From assembly GCF_900102815.1 (NCBI RefSeq), contig NZ_FNGF01000005.1, positions 1 through 64,000 on the forward strand: a stretch of DNA of 64,000 nucleotides, given 5' to 3'. A program made the position numbers and the translations under genes. This stretch comes from Glycomyces sambucus. GTDB taxonomy: Bacteria > Actinomycetota > Actinomycetes > Mycobacteriales > Micromonosporaceae. Below the pieces are notes generated by a model. It did no database searches. It was not told where the DNA came from and saw only the letters and a program-made list of their open reading frames with translations. The number at the start of each line of letters is the position of its first letter. Position 1 is the stretch's first letter. This document shows, one piece after another, positions 16,874-53,294 of this stretch.

Positions 16874-18478
16874 ATGCCCGAGACCCAGACCAGCGGCGAC
16901 ACCGGCCGCGACGACGACGAGCGCGACGACGAGCGCGACGAAGACGACGACGAGCGCGACGACGAGGACCGGGAGGACGACGAGGACGGCGACCACCGCG
17001 GCCGCGACCGCGACGACCACCCCCGCGGCCCCCGCGAGGAGTACGAGAACAACGCGCCCGACGACTCCACCGTCGTGGAGTACCAGCGCCGCGACGCCGA
17101 CGCGCTCTTCCTCTCCGGAGAACCCTGCGGCTACGGCAGCTGCCAGAACGTCTTCAACGAGGCCGAGGCCGCCTGGATCAAGCTCGTGTCGGCCATCCCC
17201 ATCGCCGGCCAGGTCCAGATGCTCACCGTCGAGACCAAGGGCACCCCCGCGCCGAGCCAGGACAGCATCCGCAACCTGGTCGCCGAGGTCCGCCCCGACG
17301 ACCCCGACAAGTACGCCCTCCGCATGGTCAGCGAGCACTGGCAGACCTTCAAGAATGACTTCGACACCGACCCCGCCAACGGGATCGCGCCGATGCTCAA
17401 GTCCGGCCTGCGCACGCTCTCCGAGACCTGGAAGGGCACCGACTTCGACGCGTTCGCCGAACAGGTCGAGATCGTCCTCGGCAACTGCGCCTCCGTGTGC
17501 GACGACATCGGCGACGCCACCACCGGCGCCGTCGGGCTCCTGGAGCAGAAGGCCGACGAGTTCTTCGGCCTCCAGGGCGGCGACTCCGGCGAACTGCCGT
17601 ACCCCGCGCCGCTGTACTGGATCTCCGACATGGAGTCCATGTTCACCGACCCGCTCGTCCACGTGCGGCCCCCGTTCCGCAGCGGCTGGTGCGACGTCAC
17701 CGCCGGCTGCGACAACGACGGCGGCCTCATCGGGGCCCTGCTGGAACTCGGCGGCTTCGAGAAGGACTATGTGTCCGAGGTCCAGGACTACGTCGAGAAC
17801 CAGACCGACCACTACATGCGCAAGCACAAGAACGACGAACCGCCGATCACCGAGGAGCAGGCGCGCGCCTGGGCGCAGGCCGACGCCAACAACAACATCA
17901 CCGCCGACGTCAACGCCGGCATCGACGACTACAACTCGCGCTCGCAGATCGCGAACGAGGACGTCGTGAACCGGTGGGAGAACGCGGAGGAGTCGGCCTC
18001 GACGTTCGAACCCGAGGCGTACCCGTCGAGCCCCTCGACGTTCCGCGACTCCTCCGACATGCTCGCCGACGGGTACGGCGGCCTCGACGGCGGCTCCGGC
18101 GGCCTCACGGGCGGCCTGCCCTCCGGCGGCGACGGCCTCGAACCGCCCGGCGGCGGGGGCGCGGGCGGCGGAGGCGGCGGCATCAGCGGCGGCCTGGCCT
18201 CCGGCGGCGCCGGCGGCGCGACCATGGGCAGCGGCGGGAACTTCCCCGTCGGCGCGGCCTCCGCGACGGGCCTCGGCGCGGCCGGCAACACGGCCGCCGG
18301 GCTGGGCGGCGGTGTCGGTGGCGGCGGCATGGGCGGCATGATGGGCGGCGGCATGGCCGGCGGCGGCCGCGGCATGGGCGGCGAGGACGGCGCCGAAGGC
18401 GAGCACAAGGACTGGCTCGAGGAGGACGAGGAGATCTGGGGCATCATCCGCGATGCCGAAGAGGACCCGTACGCCTGA
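16874..18478 (+). CDS. large DPYA-tailed WXG-containing protein, paralogue A
   Basis: 534 residues from ATG 16874, chosen because GAAGGGAGG is about 11 bases upstream; GTG 16865 is in frame. Order: an Asp/Arg-repetitive disordered N-terminus of about 55 residues; a CGYGSC...EAAWIKLVSAIP motif (Cx4C then SAIP); a helical region with SETWKGTDFDAFAEQV (WxG); GGDSGELPYPAP; HVRPP; a second helical region; and a Gly-rich low-complexity tail (about residues 395-510) ending in EEDPYA. Two paralogues (48336, 51594) share all of these. No signal peptide, so T7SS-type export is likely. Function unknown. Confidence 0.72.
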   Translation: MPETQTSGDTGRDDDERDDERDEDDDERDDEDREDDEDGDHRGRDRDDHPRGPREEYENNAPDDSTVVEYQRRDADALFLSGEPCGYGSCQNVFNEAEAAWIKLVSAIPIAGQVQMLTVETKGTPAPSQDSIRNLVAEVRPDDPDKYALRMVSEHWQTFKNDFDTDPANGIAPMLKSGLRTLSETWKGTDFDAFAEQVEIVLGNCASVCDDIGDATTGAVGLLEQKADEFFGLQGGDSGELPYPAPLYWISDMESMFTDPLVHVRPPFRSGWCDVTAGCDNDGGLIGALLELGGFEKDYVSEVQDYVENQTDHYMRKHKNDEPPITEEQARAWAQADANNNITADVNAGIDDYNSRSQIANEDVVNRWENAEESASTFEPEAYPSSPSTFRDSSDMLADGYGGLDGGSGGLTGGLPSGGDGLEPPGGGGAGGGGGGISGGLASGGAGGATMGSGGNFPVGAASATGLGAAGNTAAGLGGGVGGGGMGGMMGGGMAGGGRGMGGEDGAEGEHKDWLEEDEEIWGIIRDAEEDPYA

Positions 18479-18503
18479 CCGGACCCCTTGCGCGACAGCA
18501 CGA

Positions 18504-18540
18504 AGCGGCGCCCCGGAGCAGTGAGCTCCGGGGCGCCGCT
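18504..18540 (+). terminator. terminator after the paralogue A pair
   Basis: A perfect 16-bp stem (18504-18519 with 18525-18540) with a 5-nt AGTGA loop, 26 bases after the stop codon. Confidence 0.85.
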
Positions 18541-18687
18541 CACTCGTCCGGGTGAACCTCCGGGTCGCGGCGGGCCGCGGACCGGATTCCTGTCGGACCC
18601 GCGGGGGAGGATCGGCGGCAGGCTCCCCGGGTGGGTGGGGGAAGCAGGAGGGCCGGACGGAGCGGGGCCCGCCGGCCCTAGACTCCA

Positions 18688-18735
18688 CCGTCCTTAGACC
18701 TCGCCGTTCTTAGACCTTGCCGTTCTTAGACCTCG
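18688..18735. repeat. 16-bp tandem repeat CCGTTCTTAGACCTCG, three copies
   Basis: Three contiguous copies with one or two substitutions, flanked by weaker half-copies, between the terminator at 18504 and the arabinanase stop. A T-run (18739-18744) follows. Confidence 0.75.
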
Positions 18736-18757
18736 CGGTTTTTTGGCCCCGGCGTTG

Positions 18758-19795: not shown

Positions 19796-19839
19796 GGCGG
19801 ACCACCTTGTCCTGGAATCGAGGAATTGAGACGAGTCGA

Positions 19840-19853
19840 TGTTATCGAGAACA
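19840..19853. promoter_or_regulatory. operator candidate of the arabinanase gene
   Basis: TGTTATCGAGAACA is a 14-bp palindrome with one mismatched pair and a central CG, of LacI/GalR type. It lies 45-58 bp upstream of the start codon. Confidence 0.5.
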
Positions 19854-20026: not shown

Positions 20027-20060
20027 CCCGTCTGTCACCTCGCTAGGCGTTCAAACGCCC

Positions 20061-38278: not shown

Positions 38279-38811
38279 GACTGCTCCCAGTCGATCGCCG
38301 AGACGAGCCAGCCGTTCTCGGTCCAGGGGTTGGAGCCTTCGACCATCGTGAGCGTCAGCGTGCCCGTGTCCAGCGGGACGCTCACCTTCAAGCCCTCCGC
38401 GGTCGCCTCGCCGACGACCTCCTCGGCGGGGACCGTCTCAGGGTCGACCCCCTCCATCGCGTCGGCGGAGTCGCTGGTCAGGAACGGCTCGATGGAATCG
38501 TGCCAGCCCTGAGCGCTGCGGCCGTCAGGGTTCAGCCACGCCTCGGCGAACTCGACCGCGGTCTCGACCGCCTCCTCCGGGAGCTCGGCGTCGGTGAAGC
38601 AGCCGTCGCCCTCGCACTCCTCGGTCGCGAACCCGTCGTCCTCGCGCAGGCCCTCGGACGTCGCCTCGCCCTCGGAGCTGTCGACGCCGTTCGTGCCGTC
38701 GAGCGGGGTTTCCTGACGCCGGTTGGCCAGCGCGATCACGCCGAGCACCAGGACGAGGATGATGACGATGATCCCGTAGCGGGAGAAGATGATCCGGAGG
38801 GCGCGGTTCAT
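38275..38811 (-). CDS. VirB8/TcpC-like (NTF2-like) membrane protein
   Basis: 178 residues. N-terminal membrane segment IIFSRYGIIVIILVLVLGVIAL, a Glu/Asp-rich linker with a Cys pair (EECEGDGCF), then an extracytoplasmic domain (AVETAVEFAEAWLNPDGRSAQGWHDSIEPFLTSDSADAM...EGSNPWTENGWLVSAIDWEQ) with the helix-sheet pattern of VirB8/TcpC NTF2-like folds. In Gram-positive conjugation systems this protein helps assemble the channel. 3 bp separate it from the VirB6-like gene. Confidence 0.7.
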   Translation of the reverse strand: MNRALRIIFSRYGIIVIILVLVLGVIALANRRQETPLDGTNGVDSSEGEATSEGLREDDGFATEECEGDGCFTDAELPEEAVETAVEFAEAWLNPDGRSAQGWHDSIEPFLTSDSADAMEGVDPETVPAEEVVGEATAEGLKVSVPLDTGTLTLTMVEGSNPWTENGWLVSAIDWEQS

Positions 38812-38814
38812 CCG

Positions 38815-40743
38815 TCATTCCCTTCTCGCAGGCCGGTAGACCTCTCCACCACTAGAACTGCCGCTTGCAGGCGAGCCGGAACCCGACCCGCTCGTCGAAC
38901 TCGCCGGCTTGTCCGATGTCGTGGTCTGCTGCTCGGGCAGTGAGTCCTTGGAACTGCTGCGAGGAGAAGAGCGCACGGTCTCGGAGTTCTCCTCGGGACG
39001 GGCGTCGTCCCGGCGCTGACGGGCGCGTTCCAGGTCCCGTTCGCGGTCGCCGTTCCGATCGGGGTCGCTGACACGCCGACCGAGGAAGGCGTCCGCCGGG
39101 CCGCTGCCGCCGACGAGGCCCGCGATGCGTCTGCCCGGCCGTAGGAGCAGCCAGGCGGCCACGCCTAGGAGCCCGATCAGGACGACCTGGAGCCAGACTG
39201 GGAGCGCAGTGCCCAGGATGCGGCTGGACGCCCAGATGTAGATCACGGCTGCGAGCGAGAAGATCGCGACGTTGATGATCGCGCCCAGGACCGTGTTCAC
39301 CAGGCGTTTGAAGGGACCGCCCGCGGGGCGCAGCAGGGCGATGGTGCCGATGATCGGCAGGGCCACGATCGCGAACCGCACGATCATGAAGCCCAGGATG
39401 ATGAGGATCGACGCGGTGAGGTCGAACAGCGAGAAGAAGATCGCCGTCAGCAGTGCGAGGAATCCGGTGCCGGTGCGCTCCCAAGCGCGTTGACCGCTGA
39501 TGTTCGCGTAAGCCTCGGGGTCTTCGGTCTGGATCTGCGCGACGAGGTTCTGCCAGGTCTCTTGCTTCTCCTCGATGAGGTCGTTGCGGTATGTGGCCGA
39601 GTCGTCCGCGTCCGCGGCCTCCTGCCAGGTGAACGCCTGCGCGGCGAAGAGGGCGGGCCCGTACTTGTAGGCGGCGTTGGACTCCACGACGACGGGGTTG
39701 CCCTCTTCGTCCAGGACCTCCTCGCCGCTGCGCTGCTGGTAGGTGACCTCTTCGCTCTGGCCGAGCATGGTGCGCAGCCAGTTCTGATAGAGGACCTGTC
39801 CGGAGACGGTGTCGGAGGCGACGACCGCGGCGGACCGCGTGTCGATGCAGAAGTCCTCGCCGTTGAGCTCCTTGAGCTCGTCGTAGCGGTCCTGGGTCAT
39901 GCCGTCCTCGCGGATGCACCCCTCGACCCGGTCGTCGTTGATGAGGACCGTGCTCAGATTCATGCCGATGGTGAGCGCCTGGTCGGTGTACTCGGCGGCC
40001 TTCACCGGCCAGCGGACCACGGCGGTGACCAGCACGAGAATGAGTACGGCCCAGGCGACGGTGGTGACGGCGTTGTTCATGTCCGCTTGGCGCGAGCGCC
40101 AGAGCAGGTACAGACCGATGAGGCCGACGGTGACGGCGCCGAAGACGGTGAAGATCTGGCGGTAGAGCACCTCGGTGCCCTGCTCCATGAAGCGGTTGGA
40201 CCAGCCCCACATGGTGTCGGGCTCCCACGCGGCCTGGCGCATCGAGTTCGCAGCGCCGACCGTGGCGACCGACAGGTTGAACTCCATGTTCGCGAGGGCG
40301 TTCGCGGTGTCGGCCCCGTTCGGGATCGACACCGAGTCCACGCATTGGCCACCGACGCTCATCTGCTGGGAGCCGTACATCGGCAGTTGGTACCCGGCGT
40401 AGCCGTAGGCGCTGTAGGTGCCGATGCCCTCGCTCTGGTCGAGGCGGCCCGGTTCGGCGAACCAGCCGGCCATGCCCGAGTCCGGTGAGGCGGGCTGAGG
40501 GGCGGCCTCGCACTGGAGTTCCTGGCCCTCGGGCAGTTCATCGAGGCAACCCGACCACTCGGTGTGCCACTCGTAGTCCGAGCACCCCTCCGCGTCCCCC
40601 TGCGCCCCCGCCGTTCCCGGCGTCAGGACCAGGGCGCCCAGGGCCGCCGTCAACGCGATGAGGATCCGGGCGGCCCGGCCGCCGAGGCGCGCGAGGCGGC
40701 CTGCGGCGGGCGGGGCGAGGTCGTGGGCGGAGGGGTCGGTCAC
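38815..40743 (-). CDS. VirB6/TrbL-like polytopic membrane protein
   Basis: 642 residues from GTG 40743. Signal-peptide-like N-terminus (LIALTAALGALVLTPGTAGAQ), a long extracytoplasmic region (SDYEWHTEWSGCLDELP...), then membrane segments VFGAVTVGLIGLYLLWRSRQ, VAWAVLILVLVTAVVRWP, LLTAIFFSLFDLTASILIILGFMIV, IVALPIIGTIALL, IINVAIFSLAAVIYIWAS and WLQVVLIGLLGVAAWLLL. The C-terminus is disordered and charged (DPDRNGDRERDLERARQRRDDARPEENSET). The topology and operon place match VirB6-like proteins that form the conjugative channel. GTGA overlap with the ATPase gene. Confidence 0.8.
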   Translation of the reverse strand: MTDPSAHDLAPPAAGRLARLGGRAARILIALTAALGALVLTPGTAGAQGDAEGCSDYEWHTEWSGCLDELPEGQELQCEAAPQPASPDSGMAGWFAEPGRLDQSEGIGTYSAYGYAGYQLPMYGSQQMSVGGQCVDSVSIPNGADTANALANMEFNLSVATVGAANSMRQAAWEPDTMWGWSNRFMEQGTEVLYRQIFTVFGAVTVGLIGLYLLWRSRQADMNNAVTTVAWAVLILVLVTAVVRWPVKAAEYTDQALTIGMNLSTVLINDDRVEGCIREDGMTQDRYDELKELNGEDFCIDTRSAAVVASDTVSGQVLYQNWLRTMLGQSEEVTYQQRSGEEVLDEEGNPVVVESNAAYKYGPALFAAQAFTWQEAADADDSATYRNDLIEEKQETWQNLVAQIQTEDPEAYANISGQRAWERTGTGFLALLTAIFFSLFDLTASILIILGFMIVRFAIVALPIIGTIALLRPAGGPFKRLVNTVLGAIINVAIFSLAAVIYIWASSRILGTALPVWLQVVLIGLLGVAAWLLLRPGRRIAGLVGGSGPADAFLGRRVSDPDRNGDRERDLERARQRRDDARPEENSETVRSSPRSSSKDSLPEQQTTTSDKPASSTSGSGSGSPASGSSSGGEVYRPARRE

Positions 40744-43700
40744 TGTTCCTCCCCGGGGGTGGTGTTCAGGTAGTCGAGGAGGCCGCGGACCCAGCTGAAG
40801 TCGGCGCGGATGCGCTGGACGCGGCCGTCGACGTCGCGCATGACGAACTCGCGGTAGGGGAGCTTGCGGGTCTCGGAGGCGTCCACTTCAGACAGGGACG
40901 CCAGCACGGACTCGTAGCCGACCCCGGTCGGCACCCGCAGCAGCTTCAGAGCCTCTTCAGCGATGGTCGCGTCCTCGGCGATGCGGCCGACGAACACGGT
41001 CGAAACGAGGTTCTGGACGTCGAGGCCGAGGATGTCCTTCGGGTTCTGCGAGGCCACGAGCGCCGCGAGGTTCCACTTGCGGGAGTCGCGGGCGAGGCGC
41101 ACCAGGAAGGAGCGGCCGGACTTCCAGCCCTCCATGAAGTGGGCCTCGTCGAGGCCGACGAGCTTGCGGCGGTGCATGTCGCCGCCGTAGGCGCGGCGGA
41201 CGGCGAGGCGGTGCGCGGTGTGGAGCATCGGCAGCGCCAATGCCTCCTCCGCCGACCAGTACTCTCGTTCGATGCCGAGGTCGGGCAGGCGCAGGCCGGA
41301 CATGGTGATGACGGTGAGTGCCGTGTCGTCCTCCAGGACCCCCTTGTCGGGGCTGCCGAAGAACAGTTTCGCGAGCGGCATCTCGGCGGTGTCGAGCAGG
41401 AGCGCGGCGAGTTCGGCGCCGTCGCCGGTGACGTGGTCCTCGGCGTCCTGGAGGGACTCGACGAGGTCTTCGAGCGCGGAGTCCTCCTCGGCGGGGACGT
41501 GGCGGGCGGCGTGGCGCAGGAGGCGGGCGGTGCTCGCCTCGCGCTGGACCTGCGGCGGCAGGAGCATCGCGCAGATGTCCTGGACGAGCATGCGCCGCTC
41601 GGACCTGGCGTTGGAGACGGCGATGTCGTACTCGCGCTGGCCGTCGGGCGAGTCGGCGTAGTGCTCGCGGCGCGGGGACGGGATGAGCGCGTAGGGCGCG
41701 AGCGTCCCGTACTCGGAGCCGGTCAGGTTGAGCACGCGCGAGAACGGCTTGAGCTCGGGCATCTCGCACAGCTTCGCGAGCGGCCCGGACGGGTCCAGGA
41801 GCGTGACCTGGACGCCGCGGCGGGCGGCGAGGTAGCCGATGGCGCCCATGAGGGTCGACTTGCCGCCGCCGGGCTCGGCGACGAAGACCGACAGGCCGGA
41901 CTTCTCGCGGACCTCGGTGGCGAAGTGCAGGTCGAGGAACACCGGGCTGCGCGAGGTGCCGGCGGTGCGGCCGATGAGGTCGCCGCGGCGGTCGCCGACG
42001 ACCGAGGCGGCCTGCGGCATCGCGGCGGACATGAGCTTGACGGGCATCCGGCGCACGTACCCGGTCTGGGCGACCGGCTCGCCGGGGATGAACTCGCGGG
42101 CGAGCCAGTCCTGGTTCTTCGGGTGCTGGAGGCTGATGCGCATGTCCCGCTGGTACATCTGCATGAGCGTGCGGGCGCGCTCCAGGCACTCCTCTTTCGT
42201 GTCGGCGGTGACGGCGAGGCGGTGCCAGCCGTGGGCGCGCGCGGCGTCGATGGGCAGGCCGGTGGTCATCTCGTCGCCGACGCCGAGGGCGCGCTCGGCG
42301 AGGCGCTGGAGCTCGGGCGGGGCGTCCATTGCGTGCTCGTCGTAGTCGCGCTGCTGGGAGCGGATGAGCCGCAGCCGGTGGTCGAGGTCGCGGAACGCCT
42401 CGCCGGCGCCGAGGATGTCGATGCGGCTGGAGAGCTCGACGGGCCACGGGCAGCGCTCGTGGAAGTGCAGCCACGGCTCGTGGCGCTGGGGGATCTCGAG
42501 CTCCTCCATGCGCCCGACGGTGAGGACCGCGGTGTGCTTCTCCTCGCCGGTGAGGCGGTTGACGAGCTTGACGGTGGAGCCGTACGGGCTGCGGTAGCGC
42601 TCGATCGACTCGGTGAGGGCGAGGACGTCGCCGGGCTCCCAGTCGCCGTTGGACCCCGAGAGCAGGCGCGGCGGCTCCATGCCGAGGGCGACGGAGCGGA
42701 ACACGAGCCATTCGAGCTCTTCGGTGGTGGCGCGGCGGGCGCGCACGCCGAAGGAGCCGAGGACCTCGTCGAACTGGAGGCTGCGCTTCTCGATCTTCTC
42801 GCGCTCGGAGAGCTTGGTGCCGCGCCCGAACATGCGCCCGACCTTCTCGCCGACCTGGTCGAACGCGCCGCGCCGGGAGAAGGTGATGCCGAGGAACGTC
42901 TCGCCCTCGGCGTGGGAGAGCTGCTGGAGGTGGCGCTGGGCGGCCACGAGGTGGTCGGCCCAGCTGGTGCCGCCGGGGACGGTGCGCAGCGGCCGGGCCG
43001 TGTAGCGGTCGACGGTGCGCGCCCACTGGTCGGCCGGGAACGGCCGGGTGGTGCGGCGCAGGTGCACGCGCATGCCGGCGAGGCCGGCGTACTGCTCGGC
43101 GATCGCGACGATGAGCGCCTCACGTTCGAGGTCGGGCCGGAAGGACCAGCGCACGCCGGGCAGCTTGTACCAGGCGGTGACCGACGCGGGCGTGAACGTG
43201 ACGTGCCCGGCGATCTCGGTGAGGCTCAGCTCCCGGAGCGGCTGGCGCTCCTTCTGGGCGCCGATCGGCTTGACGCGGACCGGCTTGCCGTCGCCGGTGG
43301 TCGCCGGCAGCGCCGCGGCGCGGGACTGGCGGACCGGTACGAGGTCCTGGCCGGGCGGCCGTTGTGTACTGGTTTGCGCTGCCTGACGGCGACCTGTGGA
43401 AACATTCCCGCGGGCCTGGTCAGCAGGCTGTGGATAACTCGGCCCCTGCTGTGGATAACTGCCGTTGCGCTGTGAATGACCCTGTGGATTACCGCTGGTC
43501 GGAGGCGGTGCGTAGCGCTGTGGATACCCCTGTGGATAACTCGGCTGATTCTGTGGATAACCCTGGGGATAACCCTGTGGACGAGTACTCGACGGCGGTG
43601 TCATCGACGCAGGTGGCGACGCGTGTCGCAGCGACTCCACTGGGGACGCCTGGCGCGGCTCCTGCGGCGCGGTCCGCTGCTCGCCAGTGCCGGGCCGCTT

Positions 43701-43874
43701 TGCGGGCTCGCCACTGCCGGGCTTCTTTGCGGGCTCGCCACGGAACACCGCGTCCGCCAGCGCGGTCGCGTCGTCGCCGAGGTCGCCGGACGACCGCTCC
43801 CGGTCCCGCACGGGCGCGGGGGGCCGGGGGGCCGAGAACTTGGCGACGGGCTGACGGCGGTCCTCGCCGCTCAT
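40740..43874 (-). CDS. VirB4-like conjugation/T4SS ATPase
   Basis: 1044 residues from ATG 43874 (GAGGAG upstream). About 190 N-terminal residues are low complexity, with YPQG/YPQ repeats. A helical middle region (NGDWEPGDVLAL, RYRSPYGSTVKLVNRLTG) and a C-terminal RecA-like ATPase follow: Walker A VFVAEPGGGKSTLMGAIGYL (about residue 670), Walker B KLVGLDEAHFMEGW (about 908), ASQNPKDILGL as sensor-like. VirB4/ConE proteins power T4SS substrate or pilin movement. DnaA-box-like 9-mers lie in the YPQ-coding part. Translationally coupled to both neighbours. Confidence 0.88.
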   Translation of the reverse strand: MSGEDRRQPVAKFSAPRPPAPVRDRERSSGDLGDDATALADAVFRGEPAKKPGSGEPAKRPGTGEQRTAPQEPRQASPVESLRHASPPASMTPPSSTRPQGYPQGYPQNQPSYPQGYPQRYAPPPTSGNPQGHSQRNGSYPQQGPSYPQPADQARGNVSTGRRQAAQTSTQRPPGQDLVPVRQSRAAALPATTGDGKPVRVKPIGAQKERQPLRELSLTEIAGHVTFTPASVTAWYKLPGVRWSFRPDLEREALIVAIAEQYAGLAGMRVHLRRTTRPFPADQWARTVDRYTARPLRTVPGGTSWADHLVAAQRHLQQLSHAEGETFLGITFSRRGAFDQVGEKVGRMFGRGTKLSEREKIEKRSLQFDEVLGSFGVRARRATTEELEWLVFRSVALGMEPPRLLSGSNGDWEPGDVLALTESIERYRSPYGSTVKLVNRLTGEEKHTAVLTVGRMEELEIPQRHEPWLHFHERCPWPVELSSRIDILGAGEAFRDLDHRLRLIRSQQRDYDEHAMDAPPELQRLAERALGVGDEMTTGLPIDAARAHGWHRLAVTADTKEECLERARTLMQMYQRDMRISLQHPKNQDWLAREFIPGEPVAQTGYVRRMPVKLMSAAMPQAASVVGDRRGDLIGRTAGTSRSPVFLDLHFATEVREKSGLSVFVAEPGGGKSTLMGAIGYLAARRGVQVTLLDPSGPLAKLCEMPELKPFSRVLNLTGSEYGTLAPYALIPSPRREHYADSPDGQREYDIAVSNARSERRMLVQDICAMLLPPQVQREASTARLLRHAARHVPAEEDSALEDLVESLQDAEDHVTGDGAELAALLLDTAEMPLAKLFFGSPDKGVLEDDTALTVITMSGLRLPDLGIEREYWSAEEALALPMLHTAHRLAVRRAYGGDMHRRKLVGLDEAHFMEGWKSGRSFLVRLARDSRKWNLAALVASQNPKDILGLDVQNLVSTVFVGRIAEDATIAEEALKLLRVPTGVGYESVLASLSEVDASETRKLPYREFVMRDVDGRVQRIRADFSWVRGLLDYLNTTPGEEQ
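43429..43572 (-). repeat. cluster of TTATCCACA (DnaA-box-like) 9-mers within the VirB4-like gene
   Basis: On the minus strand TTATCCACA occurs exactly at 43429-43437, 43450-43458, 43531-43539 and 43552-43560, with one-mismatch copies at 43483, 43519 and 43564. They encode Y-P-Q in the low-complexity N-terminus. Confidence 0.8.
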
Positions 43875-44260
43875 AGGCGCTCCTCAGTTCGGACGGGCTC
43901 CACGAGTGTGGGCCGCAGGCGGATCGAACGGGTCGTGAACGCCGGTATGCGGACCTCGCGGCCGTCACCGCGCGTGTGCTTCCAGTCGGTGAGCAGCGTG
44001 CGCAGGACGGTGGTCGCGGGCCGGTCGGCGTCGACGTAGCGGAAGATCAGCGAGGTCGCGACGAGGGCGAGTGAGATCTCGATGGCGGGGAAGAGGTCGA
44101 CGTCGCCGGTGAACGCCCAGCGCAGCAGCATGAACAGGGCCAGGATGGCGGCGAAGGCGCCGTACTGGCCGTACGGGAGGTGGACGGGGAGCGTGTAGCC
44201 GGGGGGGCCGAGGTACAGCAGGCGGGCACGGTAGATGTCGTCGTCGGTGCGCAAGCGCAT
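43871..44260 (-). CDS. PrgI/VirB3-like inner-membrane protein
   Basis: 129 residues: YLGPPGYTLPVHLPYGQYGAFAAILALFMLLRWAFTG and EISLALVATSLIFRYV form a membrane hairpin, with a basic C-terminal cytoplasmic tail (TRSIRLRPTLVEPVRTEERL). Small two-helix proteins of this layout, placed just before the VirB4 gene, are VirB3/PrgI-type components. GGAGGA lies ahead of ATG 44260. ATGA overlap with the ATPase start. Confidence 0.7.
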   Translation of the reverse strand: MRLRTDDDIYRARLLYLGPPGYTLPVHLPYGQYGAFAAILALFMLLRWAFTGDVDLFPAIEISLALVATSLIFRYVDADRPATTVLRTLLTDWKHTRGDGREVRIPAFTTRSIRLRPTLVEPVRTEERL

Positions 44261-44308
44261 GGGCGTCCTCCGTCCGGCCTTACTGCAACAGGGGCGATGT
44301 GGGGGCTG

Positions 44309-44590
44309 CTAGTCCTCTTGGCTGAACAGCACGTCGACCAGGCCGCCGCCGACGGCCACCAGGACGACCGCGCCGGCGATGAACGCGATGCCGATGATGG
44401 CGATCGTCGACGAGGTGAGGACCCGGCTGACCTCGCCCTTGTTGGCGCGGGCGATGAAGATGAGGCCGAGGATGGCCAGGAGGATCGGGGCGATCTTCGA
44501 CAGGAAGAACCCGATGATCCCCTGCGTGTTGATCTCGGCGCCGGCCTGGGCGTGCGCGGCGACCGTCCAAAGAGTCTCGTGAACCGTCAT
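44309..44590 (-). CDS. VirB2-like small membrane protein
   Basis: 93 residues from ATG 44590; GGAAGG lies 9 bases upstream and rules out the in-frame ATG 44599, which is too close. A short N-terminal part is followed by two hydrophobic helices (FFLSKIAPILLAILGLIFIARA and IAIIGIAFIAGAVVLVAVGGGLVDV) joined by a polar NKGEVSR loop. This is the layout of VirB2/TrbC pilin-like proteins and of the small membrane proteins at the head of Gram-positive conjugation operons. First gene of the T4SS-like operon. Confidence 0.7.
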   Translation of the reverse strand: MTVHETLWTVAAHAQAGAEINTQGIIGFFLSKIAPILLAILGLIFIARANKGEVSRVLTSSTIAIIGIAFIAGAVVLVAVGGGLVDVLFSQED

Positions 44591-44687
44591 CAGTACCATC
44601 CTTCCGTCACATAAGTCACTAGAGCCTCACGTAACGCAATTTTCACTCATGTTTCTTGTCTCCCAACCCATCGCGGGGTCTGCCCTC

Positions 44688-45812: not shown

Positions 45813-46550
45813 GTGAACGACGCCGACCAGGTCTTCACCGACCTCGACGAGCACGTGACGCTGCGCGTGCTCGACGGCCGCATCACCGTCGAACTCTCCG
45901 CCTCCGGCTTCCGCCAGACCCCCGGCGCCATCGCCAACCTCGTCGTCGAACTCGCCGGGCGCATGCCCCGGCCCGGCGCCGGCTCCGACGCCGCCCTCGC
46001 CGCCGGCATCGACGCCGTCGCCGGCCTCCAGCAGGCTGCCGCCACCGGCGGCTTCGAGGACTTCGCCGCCGTGATGCGCGGCCGCCTCGGCATCGAGGCC
46101 CCTAGGCAGACCCTCAGCCGCGACCCCGAGTTCGACCGCGCCGTCGCCAACCGCCTCGACGGCGTCCTCAACTCCATGCGCGCCGCCCAGACCGCCCGCG
46201 CCGCACCCGCCCGCGAAGTCCTCACCGCCGAGGCCGCCACCGACGAGGGCGACGTCACCGTCGCCTCCAGCTCCGAGCGCGCCGTCGCCGGCGTGTGGAT
46301 CGCCCCCGAGGCCCGCGGCCGCGGACTCGAAGGGCTCGCCACCGCCCTGACCGACCTCATCGCCCGGGCCCGCGACGAGGTCGGACGCCTCGCCGAGGCC
46401 CGCGCGAAGGCCGGCCTCCCCGACGAGGTGGCGAAGACGATCGACAATGCCCCTGAGGACGCCGATCGCGCCGGCACCGCCACCGCGCGGATCGTCGACC
46501 GCATCGCCCAGGCCAACGAGACCCTCCAGAGGAAGGCAGGACAGGCATGA
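45813..46550 (+). CDS. double YbaB/EbfC-like protein
   Basis: 245 residues from GTG 45813. Two similar units can be read: VTLRVLDGRITVELSASGFRQTPGAIANLVVELAGR in the N-terminal third and VTVASSSERAVAGVWIAPEARGRGLEGLATALTDLIARA in the C-terminal half, each a YbaB-type beta-sheet followed by a long helix, joined by a variable linker. A TATCCT -10 lies at 45775-45780. ATGA overlap with the next small gene. YbaB-like proteins next to ESX substrates recur at 4868, 58557 and 58889; here two domains are fused. Escort function is inferred. Confidence 0.65.
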   Translation: MNDADQVFTDLDEHVTLRVLDGRITVELSASGFRQTPGAIANLVVELAGRMPRPGAGSDAALAAGIDAVAGLQQAAATGGFEDFAAVMRGRLGIEAPRQTLSRDPEFDRAVANRLDGVLNSMRAAQTARAAPAREVLTAEAATDEGDVTVASSSERAVAGVWIAPEARGRGLEGLATALTDLIARARDEVGRLAEARAKAGLPDEVAKTIDNAPEDADRAGTATARIVDRIAQANETLQRKAGQA

Positions 46551-46849
46551 CCCGGATCTTCGACCCCGAGTTCGTCCGCCGGCTCGGCGAGGGCATCGAC
46601 GCCAAGGTCGTGCCCGTCCTCGAGTCCACCGACGAGGTCCTCCCCGCGCTCAGCGAGATCGACCGCAGCCTCTACACCACCGTCACCCTCCCCATGGCCG
46701 CCGCGTACTCCCTGGCCACCTCCACCGTGACCGAGTCCATGGCCGGCGCCGCCGAGTGCTTCCGGCAGATGCGCGACGCCCTCGACTCCTGCGCCCAGGA
46801 CATGACCGACACCGACGACGCCTGCTCCAAGGCGTTCGGCGGCGAGTGA
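46547..46849 (+). CDS. small helical ESX-like protein, 100 aa
   Basis: 100 residues: MTRIFDPEFVRRLGEGIDAKVVPVLESTDEVLPALSEIDRSLY then YSLATSTVTESMAGAAECFRQMRDALDSCAQDMTDTDDACSKAF. The heptad-like pattern with a central break is consistent with a WXG100-type helical hairpin, though no WxG is present. Three Cys residues lie in the second helix. Translationally coupled to the YbaB-like gene; 12 bp separate it from the next. Confidence 0.6.
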   Translation: MTRIFDPEFVRRLGEGIDAKVVPVLESTDEVLPALSEIDRSLYTTVTLPMAAAYSLATSTVTESMAGAAECFRQMRDALDSCAQDMTDTDDACSKAFGGE

Positions 46850-46861: not shown

Positions 46862-47805
46862 ATGAGTACCGGGCAGAGCCTCTACGAGGCCGGGGAGGAG
46901 ATGTCGCCGTACTACAACGGCGTCATCAAGTCCTGCGCGGTCGCCATCGCGCCCCCGGCCGTGGTCTTCGGCCTCGCCGTCCAGGCCATGGCCACCAGCA
47001 TCTACCTCAATCAGTGCAACCCCGGCGACATCCTCAAGGCCGCCGGCGCCTGGGTCTCCCTCGCCGAGAAGAACATGGAGGCCGCTGAAGAACTCCAGGC
47101 CGAGGTCGACACCGTCAACGACGGCAACTGGAAGGGCGACGACGCCGACGCCTTCCGCGAGGCCGCCGGGAACGTCAAGTCCCAGCTCCAGCAGCTCGCC
47201 GTCACCGCGTTCCTCATCGGCGCCCAGCTCCTGGCGTTCTCGGTGATGCTCACCGTCTACTGGCTGTTCCTCACCGCCTGCACCATCGTCATGGACGCGT
47301 TCCTCGCCGCCTACCTCGCCGCGCTCGCGGGCGTCCTCACCGCCCCCGGCGCCCCCGCGATCATGGCCAGCGCCCAGGCCGTCGCCACCAGCCTCGTCGC
47401 CTCCATGAAGAGCATCGAGGCGTACCTCATCGCCGTCTCCACCGGCTGCGCCGCCCTCACCGGCGGCCTCACCGCCGTCACCTTCGGGTTCCAGAAGGTC
47501 CAGGGGAACCCCGTCGACCCGCTCGACATCGCCGGGGCCGGGCTCGCGAACATGCTCGAAGGGTTCCTGGTCTACGGCATCAACGTCGCCACCATGACCC
47601 CCGGCGGGCGCCACGCCGGCGTCACCGACGCCATGCACGTCTTCCAAGGCGTCTCGGCGATCTTCCCGACCTACAAGGGCGACGGCGAGACCGGCGCGCT
47701 CTTCGAAGGCGGCGGCCCCGCGCTCGGCATCCCCGACTCCCTCCTCAACCTGTGGGAGGACCACGCGCCCGACCGGTTCACCAACCCCGAGACGATCGAA
47801 TGGCG
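46862..47805 (+). CDS. membrane-spanning WXG-type protein (EspB/PPE-like layout); end uncertain
   Basis: About 310 residues from ATG 46862. A WxG-like turn appears in TVNDGNWKGDDADAFREAAGN, followed by hydrophobic stretches (LAVTAFLIGAQLLAFSVMLTVYWLFLTACTIV, AFLAAYLAALAGVLTAPGAPAIMASAQAVATSL). The native protein seems to end near 47800, where the next gene starts in another frame, but this frame stays open to 48295 in Ser/Arg/Pro-rich out-of-frame sequence. A missing stop or single-base frameshift at the junction is likely. The end given is my estimate. Confidence 0.6.
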
Positions 47806-48246
47806 CTTAACCCCCGTGCCGTCAGGCGGACCGTCGCCGCGCTCTTCGTCCTGGTCCCGCTGCTCGCGCTGGCGGTCACCGGGGTCCGGTACCTGGAGTT
47901 CCGGTCCGCGGCCGGCGGCGGCGGGACCCACGGGACCGCAGTGGTCGAGAAAGCAGGTGTCTCCGGCGGCGGGGACGAGGTCTGCACCGGGGAGTTCACC
48001 CCCGACGGCGGCGGGCCCGCGACCGCGGTCGACATCGAGGTCGACGGCCGGTGCACCGAGGGCGAGGAGCTCGACGCGTTCCTCGTCGGACCCGCTGCGC
48101 TGCATCCGGACTGGTGGGGCGGGACGAGGGCCTGGACGGCCGGCACCGGCACCGGCGAGCACCTGGCGCCCGTCGTGGCCGTGGTCGCCTTCCTGGTGCT
48201 CCCCGTCCTGCTCGCCGTGCTGGTCTTCCGCCGCCGGGCCCGGTAG
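47800..48246 (+). CDS. two-pass membrane protein with extracytoplasmic domain
   Basis: 148 residues from ATG 47800. N-terminal segment VAALFVLVPLLALAVTGVRYLEF, an extracytoplasmic beta-rich part (GTAVVEKAGVSGGGDEVCTGEFTPDGGGPATAVDIEVDGRCTEGEELDAFLV) with a Cys pair, and a C-terminal segment LAPVVAVVAFLVLPVLLAVLVFRRRAR. The hairpin layout resembles DUF3592-type proteins. It belongs to the ESX-like chain. Confidence 0.6.
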   Translation: MALNPRAVRRTVAALFVLVPLLALAVTGVRYLEFRSAAGGGGTHGTAVVEKAGVSGGGDEVCTGEFTPDGGGPATAVDIEVDGRCTEGEELDAFLVGPAALHPDWWGGTRAWTAGTGTGEHLAPVVAVVAFLVLPVLLAVLVFRRRAR

Positions 48247-48335
48247 GCGCCGCATTCTCGGTGCTGTCGCGAGGGCGTCGCAGTTGGTACGGTGAGGGGG
48301 AACCGCCACCCGTCCCCCTCGCGAGGTGAGTATCG

Positions 48336-49862
48336 ATGAGCGACAACGAGTCCTACCAGGGCCTCGACGCCGCCGCCCCGGCCGCCGCGGCACCCGCCTT
48401 CGGGACCGCGGAACCCCCGGGCGCGGTCGAGACCCGGCCGGACCTCGCGACCGCGCGGCCCGGCTGCTCGAACCCCGAGTGCGGCAACGCCGCGGTGCAC
48501 CCCGCGGAGGAGGGCTGGCAGCGGCTCGTGTCGGCCGTCCCGGTCGAGCGGCAGCTGTACCGGTTGCGGCCCAAGGAGTCCGCGATGTCGTACCCGACCG
48601 AGGCCGACTTCCGCGCCGCCGTCGCCGCGGTCCGCCCCGAGCACGCCGACGCGCACTCGCTCCAGCGGCTGCGCACCGCCTGGACCGAGGACGTCTCCGG
48701 GCGCCTCGCCGACTGGTCCGACCAGATCCGCTCCGGCCTCGCCGACCTCGCCGAAGGCTGGTCGGGCACCGACTTCGAGTCGTTCGAGGCCGCCTGCGGC
48801 CAGACCCGCGAACTCGTCGAGGACCTCCTCGACGACGTCGACGGGACCGTCGCGAGCCTCCAGGTCACCGAGGACGCGCTGTACGCGATCCAAGGCGGCG
48901 ACTCCGGCGAGATCCCCTATCCCGCACCGCAGTTCTGGATCGACGGCGACTGGCACAGCTGGGTGTCCGTGCACCTGCGCCCGGCCTGGTGGCACGGCGA
49001 CTGCATCCAGTACACCTGCCAGGACGCCGAGCACGTGCTCGCCCTCGGCGGCGGCGACCCCGAGCTCGCCACCGAGATCATCGACTACATCGACGAGCGC
49101 ATCCTCCACTACATCGACCACTACTCCAGCCCCGTCACCATCGAGCGCGAAGGGCTCGACCCGGCCAAGGGCCTCACCGTCGAGGAGGCCAAGGAGCTCG
49201 CGGTCGCCGACGCCGCCGAGCACTACGGGACCCTCGTCGACCAGAGCTGGGGCGCCTACGACGCCCGCCACGCCGCGATCGACGACGACATCGCCCAGCG
49301 CAGCGCCGACACCGACGCCGAGGACCGCTCGGTCCGCACCGTCCGCAGCGACAAGGACTACCCGGACGCCGCCGACCCCGCGTACATGGACCTCGAACCC
49401 CCGCCCATGGACCAGCCCGCCGGTACCGCTGCGCCCCAGGCCACCGAGGACCCGTCCCTCGAACCGCCCGCCGGCGAACCCCCGGCGGAGGCCGACGAGC
49501 CCGACATCGAGGCCGACGACGAGGACGCCCCGAGCGGCGGCCTCGCCAGCGGCGGGACGGGAAGCACGAGAACCGTGTACGGGGGAGGTGCCGCGGGCGG
49601 GGCGGCCTCGGCCGCACCTGCGGCGACGACCACCGCAGGGACCGTTTCGGTGGCGGGAGCGGCGATCGGCGCGACCGCCGCGGTCGGCACCGCAGGAGCG
49701 TCGTCGACCGGACCGCGCGGAAGCGCCCTGGTCATGGGCGGCCCGGGCGGAGCGGCCGGGCAGCGGCCGATGGAGGACAAGGAACGCGAACCCGACGTCG
49801 ACCTGGTCGAGGACGCGAACATGTGGGGCTACGTCGACGAAGACGACGACCCGTACGCCTAG
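48336..49862 (+). CDS. large DPYA-tailed WXG-containing protein, paralogue B
   Basis: 508 residues. Same order as paralogues A and C: disordered Ala-rich N-terminus; PGCSNPECGNAAVHPAEEGW (Cx4C) then QRLVSAVP; a helical domain with AEGWSGTDFESFEAACGQT (WxG); IQGGDSGEIPYPAPQFWI; VHLRPAWW; a helical second half; an Ala/Gly/Thr-rich tail ending DEDDDPYA. No signal peptide. The Gly-rich tail is shorter than in paralogue C. The small partner (49903) lies 40 bp downstream rather than upstream. Confidence 0.72.
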   Translation: MSDNESYQGLDAAAPAAAAPAFGTAEPPGAVETRPDLATARPGCSNPECGNAAVHPAEEGWQRLVSAVPVERQLYRLRPKESAMSYPTEADFRAAVAAVRPEHADAHSLQRLRTAWTEDVSGRLADWSDQIRSGLADLAEGWSGTDFESFEAACGQTRELVEDLLDDVDGTVASLQVTEDALYAIQGGDSGEIPYPAPQFWIDGDWHSWVSVHLRPAWWHGDCIQYTCQDAEHVLALGGGDPELATEIIDYIDERILHYIDHYSSPVTIEREGLDPAKGLTVEEAKELAVADAAEHYGTLVDQSWGAYDARHAAIDDDIAQRSADTDAEDRSVRTVRSDKDYPDAADPAYMDLEPPPMDQPAGTAAPQATEDPSLEPPAGEPPAEADEPDIEADDEDAPSGGLASGGTGSTRTVYGGGAAGGAASAAPAATTTAGTVSVAGAAIGATAAVGTAGASSTGPRGSALVMGGPGGAAGQRPMEDKEREPDVDLVEDANMWGYVDEDDDPYA

Positions 49863-49902
49863 GCCCGCACCGAGACCCCGCACCGAGACAAGGAGCCCCC
49901 GC

Positions 49903-50241
49903 ATGGCCGTCCGCGCCTTCGACCCCGCCGCGCTCGAACGCTACCGGCAGTTCCTCGGCGATCTCATCGACGAGCTCGAGAACGACGTCATCCCGTCCCT
50001 GCGCGACGGCGCCCTGAAGAAGGCCCCCGCCTTCGGCACCGCGCCCGGCGCGGGCGAGCACGCCGCCGTCGAGTACGCCGAGTTCCACGCCACCACCTGG
50101 CGCAACCTCCAGTACCTCCGCGGCACCCTCCACGGGCTCCGCGCGGGCCTGCAGTCGGCCATCGACAACGGCGGCGTCGTCGACCAGCAGACCGCCGCCG
50201 ACCTGCTCCGACTCACCGACGGCGACGACCTTTACGCCTGA
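49903..50241 (+). CDS. small WXG-like helical protein, partner B
   Basis: 112 residues: FDPAALERYRQFLGDLIDELENDVIPSL, then FGTAPGAGEHAAVEYAEFHATTWRNLQYLRGTLHGLRAGL, with the TW-NLQ signature of partners A and C. It ends TDGDDLYA, echoing the DPYA tail of the large proteins. Two long helices are predicted. Co-transcribed with paralogue B. Confidence 0.7.
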   Translation: MAVRAFDPAALERYRQFLGDLIDELENDVIPSLRDGALKKAPAFGTAPGAGEHAAVEYAEFHATTWRNLQYLRGTLHGLRAGLQSAIDNGGVVDQQTAADLLRLTDGDDLYA

Positions 50242-50482
50242 TTTCCACGCATTGCGAGGCACGGTCACGGTGCGTGATGGACCGGTTGTTCAAAGGCGCA
50301 CGGTTTGCACACCCCTGCTAACCTGAACCGTGAACTTACCGTCGAGACCCGCGTAATCCCCCCGAAGGACGCATGGCAGCGCGCCGACTCCGCACCGCCC
50401 CGCTCGCGCCCTCGCGCGAAGGAGTCCGACCGCATGTCGGGGGACCGTACCGCAGGTACTGAACTCACAGACAGGGAATGCG

Positions 50483-50794
50483 ATGCCGAACGTCGACCCA
50501 GAAGCGCTGCGTACGTACCAGCGAACGGTACAGGCGCAGCTGGACAAGCTCGAAGACGAGATCATCTCGCAGCTCCGCAACGGCCAGCCCCTCGGCAAGC
50601 TGCCCGCCTTCGGCATGCTCGACGGCTCCGAAGCCGCCCGCACCACGTACCAGACCTTCCACGAGACCACCTGGAACAACCTCCAGGCGCTTCGTGAGTC
50701 GCTCGATGGGATCGTCACCACCCTCGACGAGGCGGCCAAGGGCCACGAGGACTCCGACGACGTCAGCGGCCAGAACTTCGACGCTCAGCTGTAA
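50483..50794 (+). CDS. small WXG-like helical protein, partner C
   Basis: 103 residues: VDPEALRTYQRTVQAQLDKLEDEIISQLRNGQPLG, FGMLDGSEAARTTYQTFHETTWNNLQALRESLDGIVTTLDEA. Shares VDPxAL, FG(M/L)LD and TW-NLQ with partners A and B. It heads the third cassette (partner, lipoprotein, large protein). A TAACCT -10-like hexamer lies near 50319. Function as T7SS-type partner is by analogy. Confidence 0.7.
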   Translation: MPNVDPEALRTYQRTVQAQLDKLEDEIISQLRNGQPLGKLPAFGMLDGSEAARTTYQTFHETTWNNLQALRESLDGIVTTLDEAAKGHEDSDDVSGQNFDAQL

Positions 50795-50841
50795 CAGTGG
50801 TCAGCCGGCAACCGGGCGACCGACAGAGAGGATCTATTGAC

Positions 50842-51591
50842 GTGACCCGAAAACTGACCCTGATCAAGGGCTTCGCGGCGGTCGGTGCGGCCGGGCTGCT
50901 GCTGTCCGGGTGCGGCGGCGACGAGCTTCCCGGGTCGTCCGGGAACGGCGACTCGGACTCCGACAGTTCCGGTTCCGGCTCGTACAGCGTGATGGCCGAA
51001 TGGGACGGGTGCCCGGCACTCGGGGACATCCAGGCCATCCACGACTACATGGGCGTCACCGACTGGGGTTCGAACGGACTCACCTCCAGCGACATTCCCA
51101 GCGGCATGGACGGCGAGGCGTTCAACTGCGGCGCCGTGCTCGCAGAGCTCGCGGTCTTCCACCAGGACAACGAGGCGACCGCGGACCGGGACATCCCGGG
51201 GACCGCGAACATCGACGTCGGCGTGGCCCCGTGGGACTCCGACTCCGAAGCGACGGAGAACTTCCAGACCCGCGTCGAGCAGCTGAAGACCGCCCTCGAG
51301 ACCGGCGGCACCGAGTACTCGGACGTGCAGGAAGGCGAGTTCGAGGGCGACTGGGACGAGACCTACTACTACGCAGGCAGGTCGGCCGACGGCTTCCTCA
51401 TGGACGCCATCGCCCGCAAGGGCGACATCGTGATCTACGTGTTCATCGACTACTCGAACGACCCGGCGGTCGTCGCCGGCGAGGACCCGGTCTACCCCTT
51501 CACCGACCAGGAGTTCACGGACTGGGTCCTGAACGAGTACCTGCCGCCGACCTACGCGGACCTCCTCGCCAAGAAAGAGAACGGACTCTAG
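50842..51591 (+). CDS. lipoprotein between partner C and paralogue C
   Basis: 249 residues from GTG 50842, preceded by AGAGGA. A lipoprotein signal with lipobox LLSGCGGDE (Cys near residue 23) is followed by an Asp/Ser/Gly linker and an acidic globular domain (YSVMAEWDGCPALGDIQAIHDYMGV, ETYYYAGRSADGFLMDAIARKGDIVIYVFIDYS). Resembles the DUF3558-type extracellular lipoproteins of actinobacteria, but only loosely. Its stop is 2 bp before the next start, so it is co-expressed and may hold the secreted partner near the membrane. Confidence 0.65.
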   Translation: MTRKLTLIKGFAAVGAAGLLLSGCGGDELPGSSGNGDSDSDSSGSGSYSVMAEWDGCPALGDIQAIHDYMGVTDWGSNGLTSSDIPSGMDGEAFNCGAVLAELAVFHQDNEATADRDIPGTANIDVGVAPWDSDSEATENFQTRVEQLKTALETGGTEYSDVQEGEFEGDWDETYYYAGRSADGFLMDAIARKGDIVIYVFIDYSNDPAVVAGEDPVYPFTDQEFTDWVLNEYLPPTYADLLAKKENGL

Positions 51592-51593
51592 CC

Positions 51594-53294
51594 ATGGCAG
51601 ACGAATTCGAGAAGGAAGAGTACGGCGACGCCCAGGAGGGAATGGCCAACTCCGCGATCCAGGCCCGGATCAACCAGTTGATGAAGACCCCCACCTGCAG
51701 CCTCGGCGAATGCACCAACAAGACGGTGGACCCCGCTGAGGAAGCGTGGCTCAAACTGATGTCGGCGGTGCCCAAGGGCGCCGGGGCGACGGCGAACATC
51801 CGGCCCTCCCGCGATATCGAGGGCTACGCCCTGCCCGACGGCCAGTCGGTCCAGTCGCTCGTCGCCTCGCTCCGCCCCAGCAACCCCGACGACCACGCGA
51901 TCCTCGTGATCAGCCAGAAGTGGAAGGACCTCGCCGGCACGTTCGTCGCGGTCCCCGAAGACCTCCAGGCCGGCCTCACCGCGCTCTCCGGAGAATGGGA
52001 GGGCGCCGACTACGACGCCTTCGAGGAGCAGGTCCAGACCGTCATCAAGAACTGCAACAAGGTGCTGAAGGACATCGAGGGCGAAGGCGGTGGCGGCGGC
52101 GCCGTCAAGAACCTCGAGGACAAGGCCACCGACATCCTCAACCAGCAGGGCGGGGACGAGTGCCCTTACCCCTCGCCGAAATTCCACCTCGAGGATGCGG
52201 CCGCCTGCTCGCACAAGATCCACATCCGCCCCCCTTACTTCCCGTCGTGCGAGGTCTTCGCCGACGACGAGACCAAGGTGGCGATGGAGTGGGCCGGGTT
52301 CGACAGCAACATCGTCGACGAGGTGCAAGAAGAGCGCGAACGCATCTACAACATGTACAAGGACCACACGAACCAGTACCCCGACTACGAGGAGGACGGC
52401 CTGCGCGGCGAGGAGCTCGCCAAGACGCGCGCCGACGAGTACGCGAAGCGGGCCACCGACGACCTCGGCACCGACGGCCAGGACCAGCTCCAGGAGCAGG
52501 CGTCGATCGTCAACGAGGACATCACCGACCGCACCAGCAACACCAACATGGCGGTCTCCGAGATCAAGCCCGAAGCGGTGCAGTCGGAGCCGACGACGTT
52601 CAACAAGGGCGACGTCGAGCCGCCCGGTGGTCTCGACGGCGGCGGGGCTCCTCCTGGTGGCGGCGGCGCGCCTCCCGGCCTCGGCGACATGAAGCCCCCG
52701 GGCGGCATGAAGCCGGTGTCGCCCCCGTCGCCGAACCTGCCGGACACGGACACGGGCAACCCGGACCTCCCTGGGAACGGCGATCTGCCCGGTAACAGCG
52801 ACATCCCCGGCCCCGGCGACCTCGACGACAACCCGTGGGAGCCGACTTCTCCCGACCCTGACGACCTGCCTTCGGGTGGTCTCGCCGGTGGCGGTGGTGG
52901 CGGCCTCGGTGGTGGTATCGGCGGCGGTGGCCTCGGCCCCGGCGGCGGTGCCGGTCTCGGAGGCGGCGGCCTCGGCGGCGGTGCCGGTGGCGGCATTGGC
53001 GGCGGCGTCGGTGCAGGCGGCATGGGCGGCATGATGGGCGCCGGCGGCGCCGGTCGTGGAGCCGGTGGTGTCGGTGGCGGTCGTGGTGCCGGTGGTCGTG
53101 GACCCGGCGGCATGGGGCGCGGCGCTGGTGCCGGTGGCATGGGTCGTGGCGGTATGGCCGGCGGCATGATGGGCGCCGGTGGCGGCCGCGGCATGGGCGG
53201 CGTGGGCGAGGACGGTCAGGAGACCGGCACCTGGCTCACCGAGGACGACGACGTGTGGGGCATCGGGAACGAGAACGAGGACCCGTACGCGTAG
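51594..53294 (+). CDS. large DPYA-tailed WXG-containing protein, paralogue C
   Basis: 566 residues. PTCSLGECTNKTVDPAEEAW (Cx4C) then LKLMSAVP; a helical domain with SGEWEGADYDAFEEQVQTVIKNC (WxG); QQGGDECPYPSPKFHL; HIRPPYFPSCEVF; a second helical region; a Pro/Gly linker (PPGGLDGGGAPPGGGGAPPG) and a Gly-rich tail of about 160 residues made of GG(L/I/M)G repeats, ending NENEDPYA. The tail is the longest of the three paralogues. No signal peptide. Followed by a strong terminator. Confidence 0.72.
   Translation: MADEFEKEEYGDAQEGMANSAIQARINQLMKTPTCSLGECTNKTVDPAEEAWLKLMSAVPKGAGATANIRPSRDIEGYALPDGQSVQSLVASLRPSNPDDHAILVISQKWKDLAGTFVAVPEDLQAGLTALSGEWEGADYDAFEEQVQTVIKNCNKVLKDIEGEGGGGGAVKNLEDKATDILNQQGGDECPYPSPKFHLEDAAACSHKIHIRPPYFPSCEVFADDETKVAMEWAGFDSNIVDEVQEERERIYNMYKDHTNQYPDYEEDGLRGEELAKTRADEYAKRATDDLGTDGQDQLQEQASIVNEDITDRTSNTNMAVSEIKPEAVQSEPTTFNKGDVEPPGGLDGGGAPPGGGGAPPGLGDMKPPGGMKPVSPPSPNLPDTDTGNPDLPGNGDLPGNSDIPGPGDLDDNPWEPTSPDPDDLPSGGLAGGGGGGLGGGIGGGGLGPGGGAGLGGGGLGGGAGGGIGGGVGAGGMGGMMGAGGAGRGAGGVGGGRGAGGRGPGGMGRGAGAGGMGRGGMAGGMMGAGGGRGMGGVGEDGQETGTWLTEDDDVWGIGNENEDPYA

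Follow-up and report, generated by a model that had tools for sequence, protein, structure and literature searches.

We analyzed a 64,000-nt stretch of the Glycomyces sambucus genome (NZ_FNGF01000005.1; hereafter, the window), which has a G+C content of 71% and comes from a genome of 5.6 Mb. It encodes three large proteins with a WXG-type domain, a Gly-rich linker, and a C-terminal DPYA-like end, each lying beside a small partner. An initial annotation, made from the sequence alone, had described these proteins as a three-member family and as the best candidate for an undescribed secreted system. The three large and three small open reading frames (ORFs) do lie where it placed them and read as it claimed, and a lipoprotein gene within the third pair (50842-51591) had been overlooked. 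Our data show that the genome holds six such pairs, which are probably substrates of a known type of secretion machine. The main features in the window are as follows (aa, amino acids):

16551..16868, + strand: small partner 1 (105 aa), with TWSNLQ and the export-like site AVETD
16874..18478, + strand: large protein 1 (534 aa), with an acid-rich N-terminal extension and the tail DWLEEDEEIWG...EEDPYA
18413-18439: tail box of large protein 1, located by a DNA pattern match
48336..49862, + strand: large protein 2 (508 aa), with the tail DLVEDANMWGYVDEDDDPYA, a degenerate form of the box
49903..50241, + strand: small partner 2 (112 aa), with the C-terminus DDLYA and GVVD at the export-like site
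50483..50794, + strand: small partner 3 (103 aa), with the export-like site HEDSD
50842..51591, + strand: lipoprotein (249 aa), with the lipobox-like LLLSGC
51594..53294, + strand: large protein 3 (566 aa), with a WXG100/PPE-like domain, a Gly-rich linker, and the tail TWLTEDDDVWGIGNENEDPYA
51696..51713, + strand: Cys35-x4-Cys40 of large protein 3, invariant in the alignment
52221..52250, + strand: His210-x-Arg212 ... Cys219 of large protein 3, invariant in the alignment
53229..53259, + strand: C-terminal tail box TWLTEDDDVWG of large protein 3

A search of the whole genome revealed six large paralogues rather than three, i.e., those in the window and one in each of the loci L009, L010, and L011, and all six have an adjoining small partner. 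The small-partner motif is TWxNLQ in L009 and L010 and MWRSLQ in L011. In addition, a lipoprotein gene (~240 aa) stands between the small and large genes in three of the six pairs (50842-51591 in the window, L009, and L010).

A scan of a genome collection returned 65 loci, 64 of them in Glycomyces records and one in a metagenome-assembled genome, and the closest large-family matches among named records were in G. albidus and G. dulcitolivorans. With a better profile (E <= 1e-12), 27 of 250 sampled genomes of the same GTDB family matched, namely the source genome, 21 congeners, four other genomes that match over the whole domain (G401, G407, G408, and G420), and one that matches over the WXG part only (G896). 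Absence from our second search of the GTDB family and from those of the order and the phylum (A1) carries little weight because few candidates were scored per genome (8, 6, and 3, respectively); a match in the phylum search (G246, E 2.2e-4) spans model positions 413-520, which is the Gly-rich part.

Collectively, the source genome and the 65 fetched loci contain 79 distinct large ORFs (E <= 1e-15, duplicates removed by the last 150 residues) in three gene orders: small-lipoprotein-large (31), large-small (28), and small-large (17). In the remaining three no small gene was found, and two of these ORFs are cut by the locus end. When other genera are included, 84 of the 88 full large domains (domains shorter than 250 aa and identical domains excluded) have a small partner no more than 1.6 kb away, which bears out the claim that each large protein neighbors a small one. 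The four unpaired domains are in L064, L104, L105, and L109, with the small gene lying further off in L104 and L105. In these latter two loci, two lipoprotein genes stand in tandem between the small and large genes, and the large protein ends KDEYR. Broken large copies, whose tail is gone or which have in-frame stops, were also seen (L061:11452-12249, L074:12996-14108, and G766:C31:171699-172709). The divergence of small and large proteins is correlated over 84 pairs (r = 0.92, in part owing to the species tree; best of 2000 permutations, 0.10), and over the six pairs of the source genome, a comparison free of the species tree, r is 0.84, a value that 3 of 720 permutations reach. Since the two diverge in step (0.92 versus 0.10), the pairing goes beyond chance. 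The family is real: a small partner is dedicated to it, both its Cys site and its C-terminus are conserved, and export of its members is probable.

The large domain was aligned for 68 of the 71 large matches (A4; three fragments were excluded), and invariance was counted over the 84 paired domains, leaving aside the four unpaired ones. Three other alignments in the analysis (A6, A7, and A8) comprise 21, 24, and 24 chosen rows. The ordered motif set that had been read across the three large proteins is upheld by the alignment. The WxGxD residues are almost invariant (W in 83/84, G and D in 84/84), and the N-domains match WXG100 with a best E of 2.4e-7 (38 of 68 at E <= 0.1). Further comparison using HHalign against WXG100/PPE-like profiles gave 98%, and the top fold matches of the predicted model were PPE41 and an EsxEF chain. 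The large domain is of the WXG100/PPE-like fold class. In the predicted model it forms a helical hairpin with a strand-rich insert of ~30 residues, which carries a His and the third Cys.

The initial annotation had proposed the Cx4C pair as a metal or disulfide site. Both Cys are present in all 84 aligned domains, so that homologues lacking them are not common, and the Cx4C spacing is kept in 79 domains, the other five having other spacings. The site is indeed conserved, and its description was incomplete, as it belongs to a wider C-C-H-C set that is itself invariant (84/84). DSSP bridges at model residues 4 and 188 are compatible with these ligands lying near each other in the model. The set is most likely a zinc site.

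None of the 68 large N-domains matched PF00823 (PPE) at E <= 0.1, nor did the three full-length proteins of the window, and EspA/EspE, for which a Pfam model exists, is not among the 17 Pfam families matched by those N-domains at the same threshold. Single large and small proteins gave nothing over cut-off in Pfam and NCBIfam. The large proteins have no Pfam or NCBIfam name of their own, in keeping with the initial annotation, which knew of no described family with this architecture, and we found no paper on the large-small family in the open-licence PMC literature. Large proteins of the 16874 class in L035, L041, L042, L044, L046, L048, and L050 have a very acidic N-terminal extension, which reaches up to ~165 aa ahead of the first Cys.

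For the small partners, 57 rows of 78 matches were aligned (A5). Alignment of their profile to Esx proteins covers its second half (82.7%, E 9.5e-6) and puts the acid of the YxxxD/E export motif in register. It had been noted that no such motif is obvious, and this holds for the Tyr, found in just 2 of the 57 rows; the acid, by contrast, is mostly in register (D or E in 50 of 53 aligned residues, the most acidic among the alignment columns printed from 61 on), and canonical YxxxE occurs in the ESX-linked homologues of L110 and L111 (NYGKAE and NYDETE). Among the partners of the L011 type, 5 of 10 flagged rows have no acid at the export-like site. No small partner passed the EspC cut-off (PF10824), with 2 of 57 at E <= 0.1 and a best E of 0.0048; small partner 3 scored 14.5 bits against a cut-off of 23.5. 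The best Pfam match of the latter is DUF2563 (PF10817; 18.6 bits, cut-off 21.2), which 4 of the 57 match at E <= 0.1. Against PDB sequences, the best E for the small family was 0.34. Partners of the 48336 class (49903-50241 and relatives) end DDLYA, AEDRYA, GDDIYS, or EDEIYS, echoing the DPYA of the large proteins. As for the lipoprotein, two Cys beyond the lipobox are invariant across 24 aligned relatives, and searches against Pfam and PDB sequences gave chance-level matches (among them one to PknH_C, E 0.038).

The DPYA end had been taken as a fixed tetrapeptide that might serve as a secretion or anchoring tag. Of the 71 uncut large ORFs, DPYA closes 43 and the other 28 end differently: DPYN (12), DPFA (4), DPLA (3), DPYS (2), and DPYV, DPFK, NPYA, DPYL, and DPYI (once each), with no such end in two broken copies. 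Homologues without DPYA are common, an outcome that the initial annotation had named as one that would refute its view, and those in L110 and L111 end APPSLLH and APPSLLR. On these counts, we rejected DPYA as an essential tag. The variable tetrapeptide merely closes a longer box, typically WLxEDxDxWG; WG lies within the last 22 residues in 69 of the 71, and DP at positions -4/-3 in 68. A strict DNA pattern for the box finds four of the six copies in the source genome, the other two tails being DLVEDANMWG and DLARRETGNPWG, and the core that is invariant over all six consists of L, E, WG, and DP.

The box extends beyond this family. PPE-like proteins of other genera carry it with another tip (STWLQEDEDVWGGGDAAPGVLR and TWLTEDEDPWHSDENTAPPVVGM), and the PPE-like protein of the ESX core in the source genome ends TRETWLREDDVDWSRNR... 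The DNA pattern occurred in 30 of 101 genomes of the GTDB family and in 17 of 296 genomes from the class, other families included, and the reversed control in none of either (0/101 and 0/296). In every locus read (30 of 45 places in the family scan and 15 new ones of 17 places in the class scan), the box sits 21-68 aa ahead of the stop. Outside the genus, at least 18 of 34 matches lie within 15 kb of EccC, where a rough estimate from about four EccC in a 9-Mb genome predicts fewer than one; of the sixteen not near a listed EccC, eleven come from a single genus (g242). A second tail class (L138, L149, L151, L153-L155, and L158-L167) has a WLxEDEE/DVWG box followed by ...APAV(V/I)GR or similar and by ~30 more residues, often with a basic end.

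Because the box is spread over other actinobacterial ESX-type proteins, the data suggest an undescribed C-terminal signal; the string EDEDVWG returned no paper in open-licence PMC. As to the role of the box, we would put recognition by the ESX membrane complex or mycosin first, with considerable reserve, and surface retention next, as a somewhat fainter choice.

In two other genera, the family is encoded within an ESX core locus. In L110 and L111, a lipoprotein-small-large triad stands inside an ESX core, between EccC/Esx and EccB/mycosin. By NCBIfam, EccB, EccC, and one of two mycosins of L110 are over cut-off and the other mycosin is below it, and WXG100 proteins are present; L111 has the same layout, with EccC among the listed matches. 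EccC was found in all 101 family genomes examined. The source genome has a single EccC over cut-off (C7:533485; the one match at E <= 1e-100), on the same contig as large protein 3 and ~480 kb from it, and near it lie an EccB just over cut-off, a mycosin below cut-off, and, by eye, two Esx-like genes. Unlike the triads of L110 and L111, the six pair loci of this genome are away from the ESX core, and since its sole over-cut-off EccC lies elsewhere, they look like satellites of one core. At G000:C7:67282-67758, just outside the window and ~14 kb past large protein 3, an 815-aa frame gives an FtsK/EccC-type match that stays below cut-off (76 bits). EspG (PF14011) had no match in the source genome, and none in 14 controls either.

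Given these results, we consider it likely that an ESX machine (type VII secretion system, T7SSa) encoded elsewhere in the genome takes the large and small proteins as substrates in cognate pairs. In the cytoplasm, the small protein would form a helical hairpin packed against the WXG/PPE-like hairpin of the large one, and the acid in the C-terminal helix of the small protein (Y/H/A/S-xxx-D/E) would dock the folded dimer on EccC, after which the pair would cross the membrane together; all six pairs would be served by the single EccC. The large protein would consist of a compact domain held by the C-C-H-C set, most likely with zinc, and of a long Gly/Ala linker joining it to the box at the C-terminus (typically WLxEDxDxWG, followed by a DPYA-like end), which may be recognized by the mycosin protease or the ESX membrane complex as a hold or processing signal. 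The lipoprotein, where encoded, would probably receive or hold the exported pair at the membrane. Taking this one step further, we tentatively propose that the box (typically TWLxEDxDxWG) and its short end form a second, undescribed T7SSa signal, which several actinobacterial families bear on the WXG/PPE-like partner rather than on the YxxxD/E partner and by which the exported protein is docked on, or retained by, the ESX membrane complex or mycosin. Under this proposal, Glycomyces would combine the signal with a zinc-binding C-C-H-C domain and, at some loci, with a lipoprotein as receptor, so that six ESX products would be metal-dependent and held at the envelope.

The closeness of many extra-generic tail matches to EccC (at least 18 of 34 within 15 kb), a tail conserved where the linker is not, and an export site that is degenerate in most Glycomyces partners would also suit accessory components of the ESX machine that are not exported and act from the membrane or the cytoplasm as a chaperone or plug, with the tail docking on EccC or mycosin. 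We regard this as improbable, as six divergent copies far from the sole over-cut-off EccC make a substrate-like pattern, the lipoprotein that accompanies some of the pairs implies that a step takes place outside the cytoplasm, and the ESX-linked homologues have YxxxE. WXG-type N-terminal domains lead many T7SS toxins, T7SSb examples among them, and the adjacency of large and small genes could recall secreted toxin-immunity or polymorphic effector pairs in which the small protein is an immunity protein or adaptor. This is very unlikely: toward the C-terminus the large proteins have a Gly/Ala-rich linker and a conserved end (WG in 69/71) and not a variable toxin domain, on which ground we rejected a polymorphic toxin, five full-length large proteins gave no toxin-domain match, and the small partner is itself Esx-like. 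A separate, undescribed secretion system tagged by DPYA, for which the missing Pfam/NCBIfam name, the conserved C-terminus, and pair loci without EccC might speak, has equally slight prospects in view of the ESX-core linkage and YxxxE in L110/L111, the variable terminal residues, and the gene lists read for a subset of loci, where no genes for an export apparatus recur save a conjugation-like cluster beside one locus type. Fold class, partner logic, and the ESX-core position in two other genera all point to T7SSa. An independent system as first proposed is therefore not supported and was rejected on the ESX linkage; the best reading is that a known machine has a new family of substrates here.

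The mycobacterial ESX-1 modules EspA-EspC(-EspD) and EspE-EspF(-EspH) offer the closest parallel, with a large WxG protein, a YxxxD/E partner of ~100 aa, and a YbaB-like chaperone, and espACD likewise lies apart from the ESX-1 core. PMC6107294 places WxG in EspA and EspE and YxxxD/E in EspC and EspF, and describes the YbaB-like EspD/EspH as chaperones. The Glycomyces pairs probably act in the same way, YbaB-like chaperones included. Because EspA/EspE gave no Pfam match, we say that the large family works like these proteins and not that it is one of them: it has its own C-C-H-C set, a PYPAP/HxRP insert, a long Gly-rich linker, and the C-terminal box. The small family, compared with EspC/EspF, is below the EspC cut-off and has mostly lost the export-site Tyr, and part of the loci have an extra lipoprotein gene. 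PE-PPE pairs (PE25-PPE41) differ in that the large family has no PF00823 match and carries the strand-rich insert of ~30 residues with its His and third Cys. For Esx/WXG100 proteins, PMC3935865 gives the extended pattern HxxxD/ExxhxxxH; the small partner mostly keeps the acid and the hydrophobic residue seven positions on, and its first hydrophobic position is mostly A, H, or S. The likeness of small partner 3 to DUF2563 stays below cut-off. Nearer by, PPE-like proteins with a TWLxEDxDVWG-type tail from other genera of the same GTDB family (L112-L115, with EccC near those of L114 and L115) and from the ESX core of the source genome (L090:7299-8573) share the box, the WXG-type domain, and the Gly-rich linker, but end APGVLR, APPVVG, and the like, have no C-C-H-C (alignment of eight), and occur as one PPE-like protein rather than as a large-small-lipoprotein set.

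To our knowledge, little is known of ESX substrates outside mycobacteria, and no paper on Glycomyces and type VII secretion was found in open-licence PMC. Six cognate pairs and one EccC in one soil bacterium provide a system for asking how a single machine distinguishes pairs, whether YxxxD/E can function without its Tyr, and whether a C-terminal signal of its own is present on the WxG partner. An invariant C-C-H-C set is unusual for an ESX substrate.

Just upstream of large protein 2 stand three further genes:

45813..46550, + strand: 245-aa protein with a weak YbaB/EbfC match (E 0.014, 16.0 bits, cut-off 25.5)
46547..46849, + strand: 100-aa protein at the PE-partner position, with no Pfam match
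46862..48295, + strand: PPE-like protein (PF00823, 27.1 bits against a cut-off of 26, on the first 368 aa)

The first of these is a possible chaperone of the EspD/EspH kind, and genes like it in length and N-terminus occupy the same position, by eye, in L009, L117, and L119. The YbaB-PE-PPE-type order likewise recurs by eye in L117 and L119, and in L009 it lies upstream of the small-lipoprotein-large set. The 46862-48295 frame runs ~110 codons beyond the end of its relatives (NPETIDWR in L117 and NPDEVQWK in L119) and overlaps the next gene in another frame, which may reflect a lost stop or an assembly error.

Further upstream, 37115-44599 (- strand) holds a conjugation-like cluster with an AAA_10 ATPase (40743-43874) and an M23 peptidase, and L119 also encodes proteins like those at 43874-44260 and 44312-44599, immediately ahead of its YbaB-PE-PPE-type genes. 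A second T7SS-like pair lies at 54741-56215 (- strand) and consists of an EspC-family protein (PF10824, 36.0 bits) and a WXG100_2 protein (31.6 bits), both over cut-off. At 4868-6215, three genes in succession encode a YbaB/EbfC protein, a protein with a weak likeness to WXG100 that stays below cut-off, and a WXG100_2 protein.

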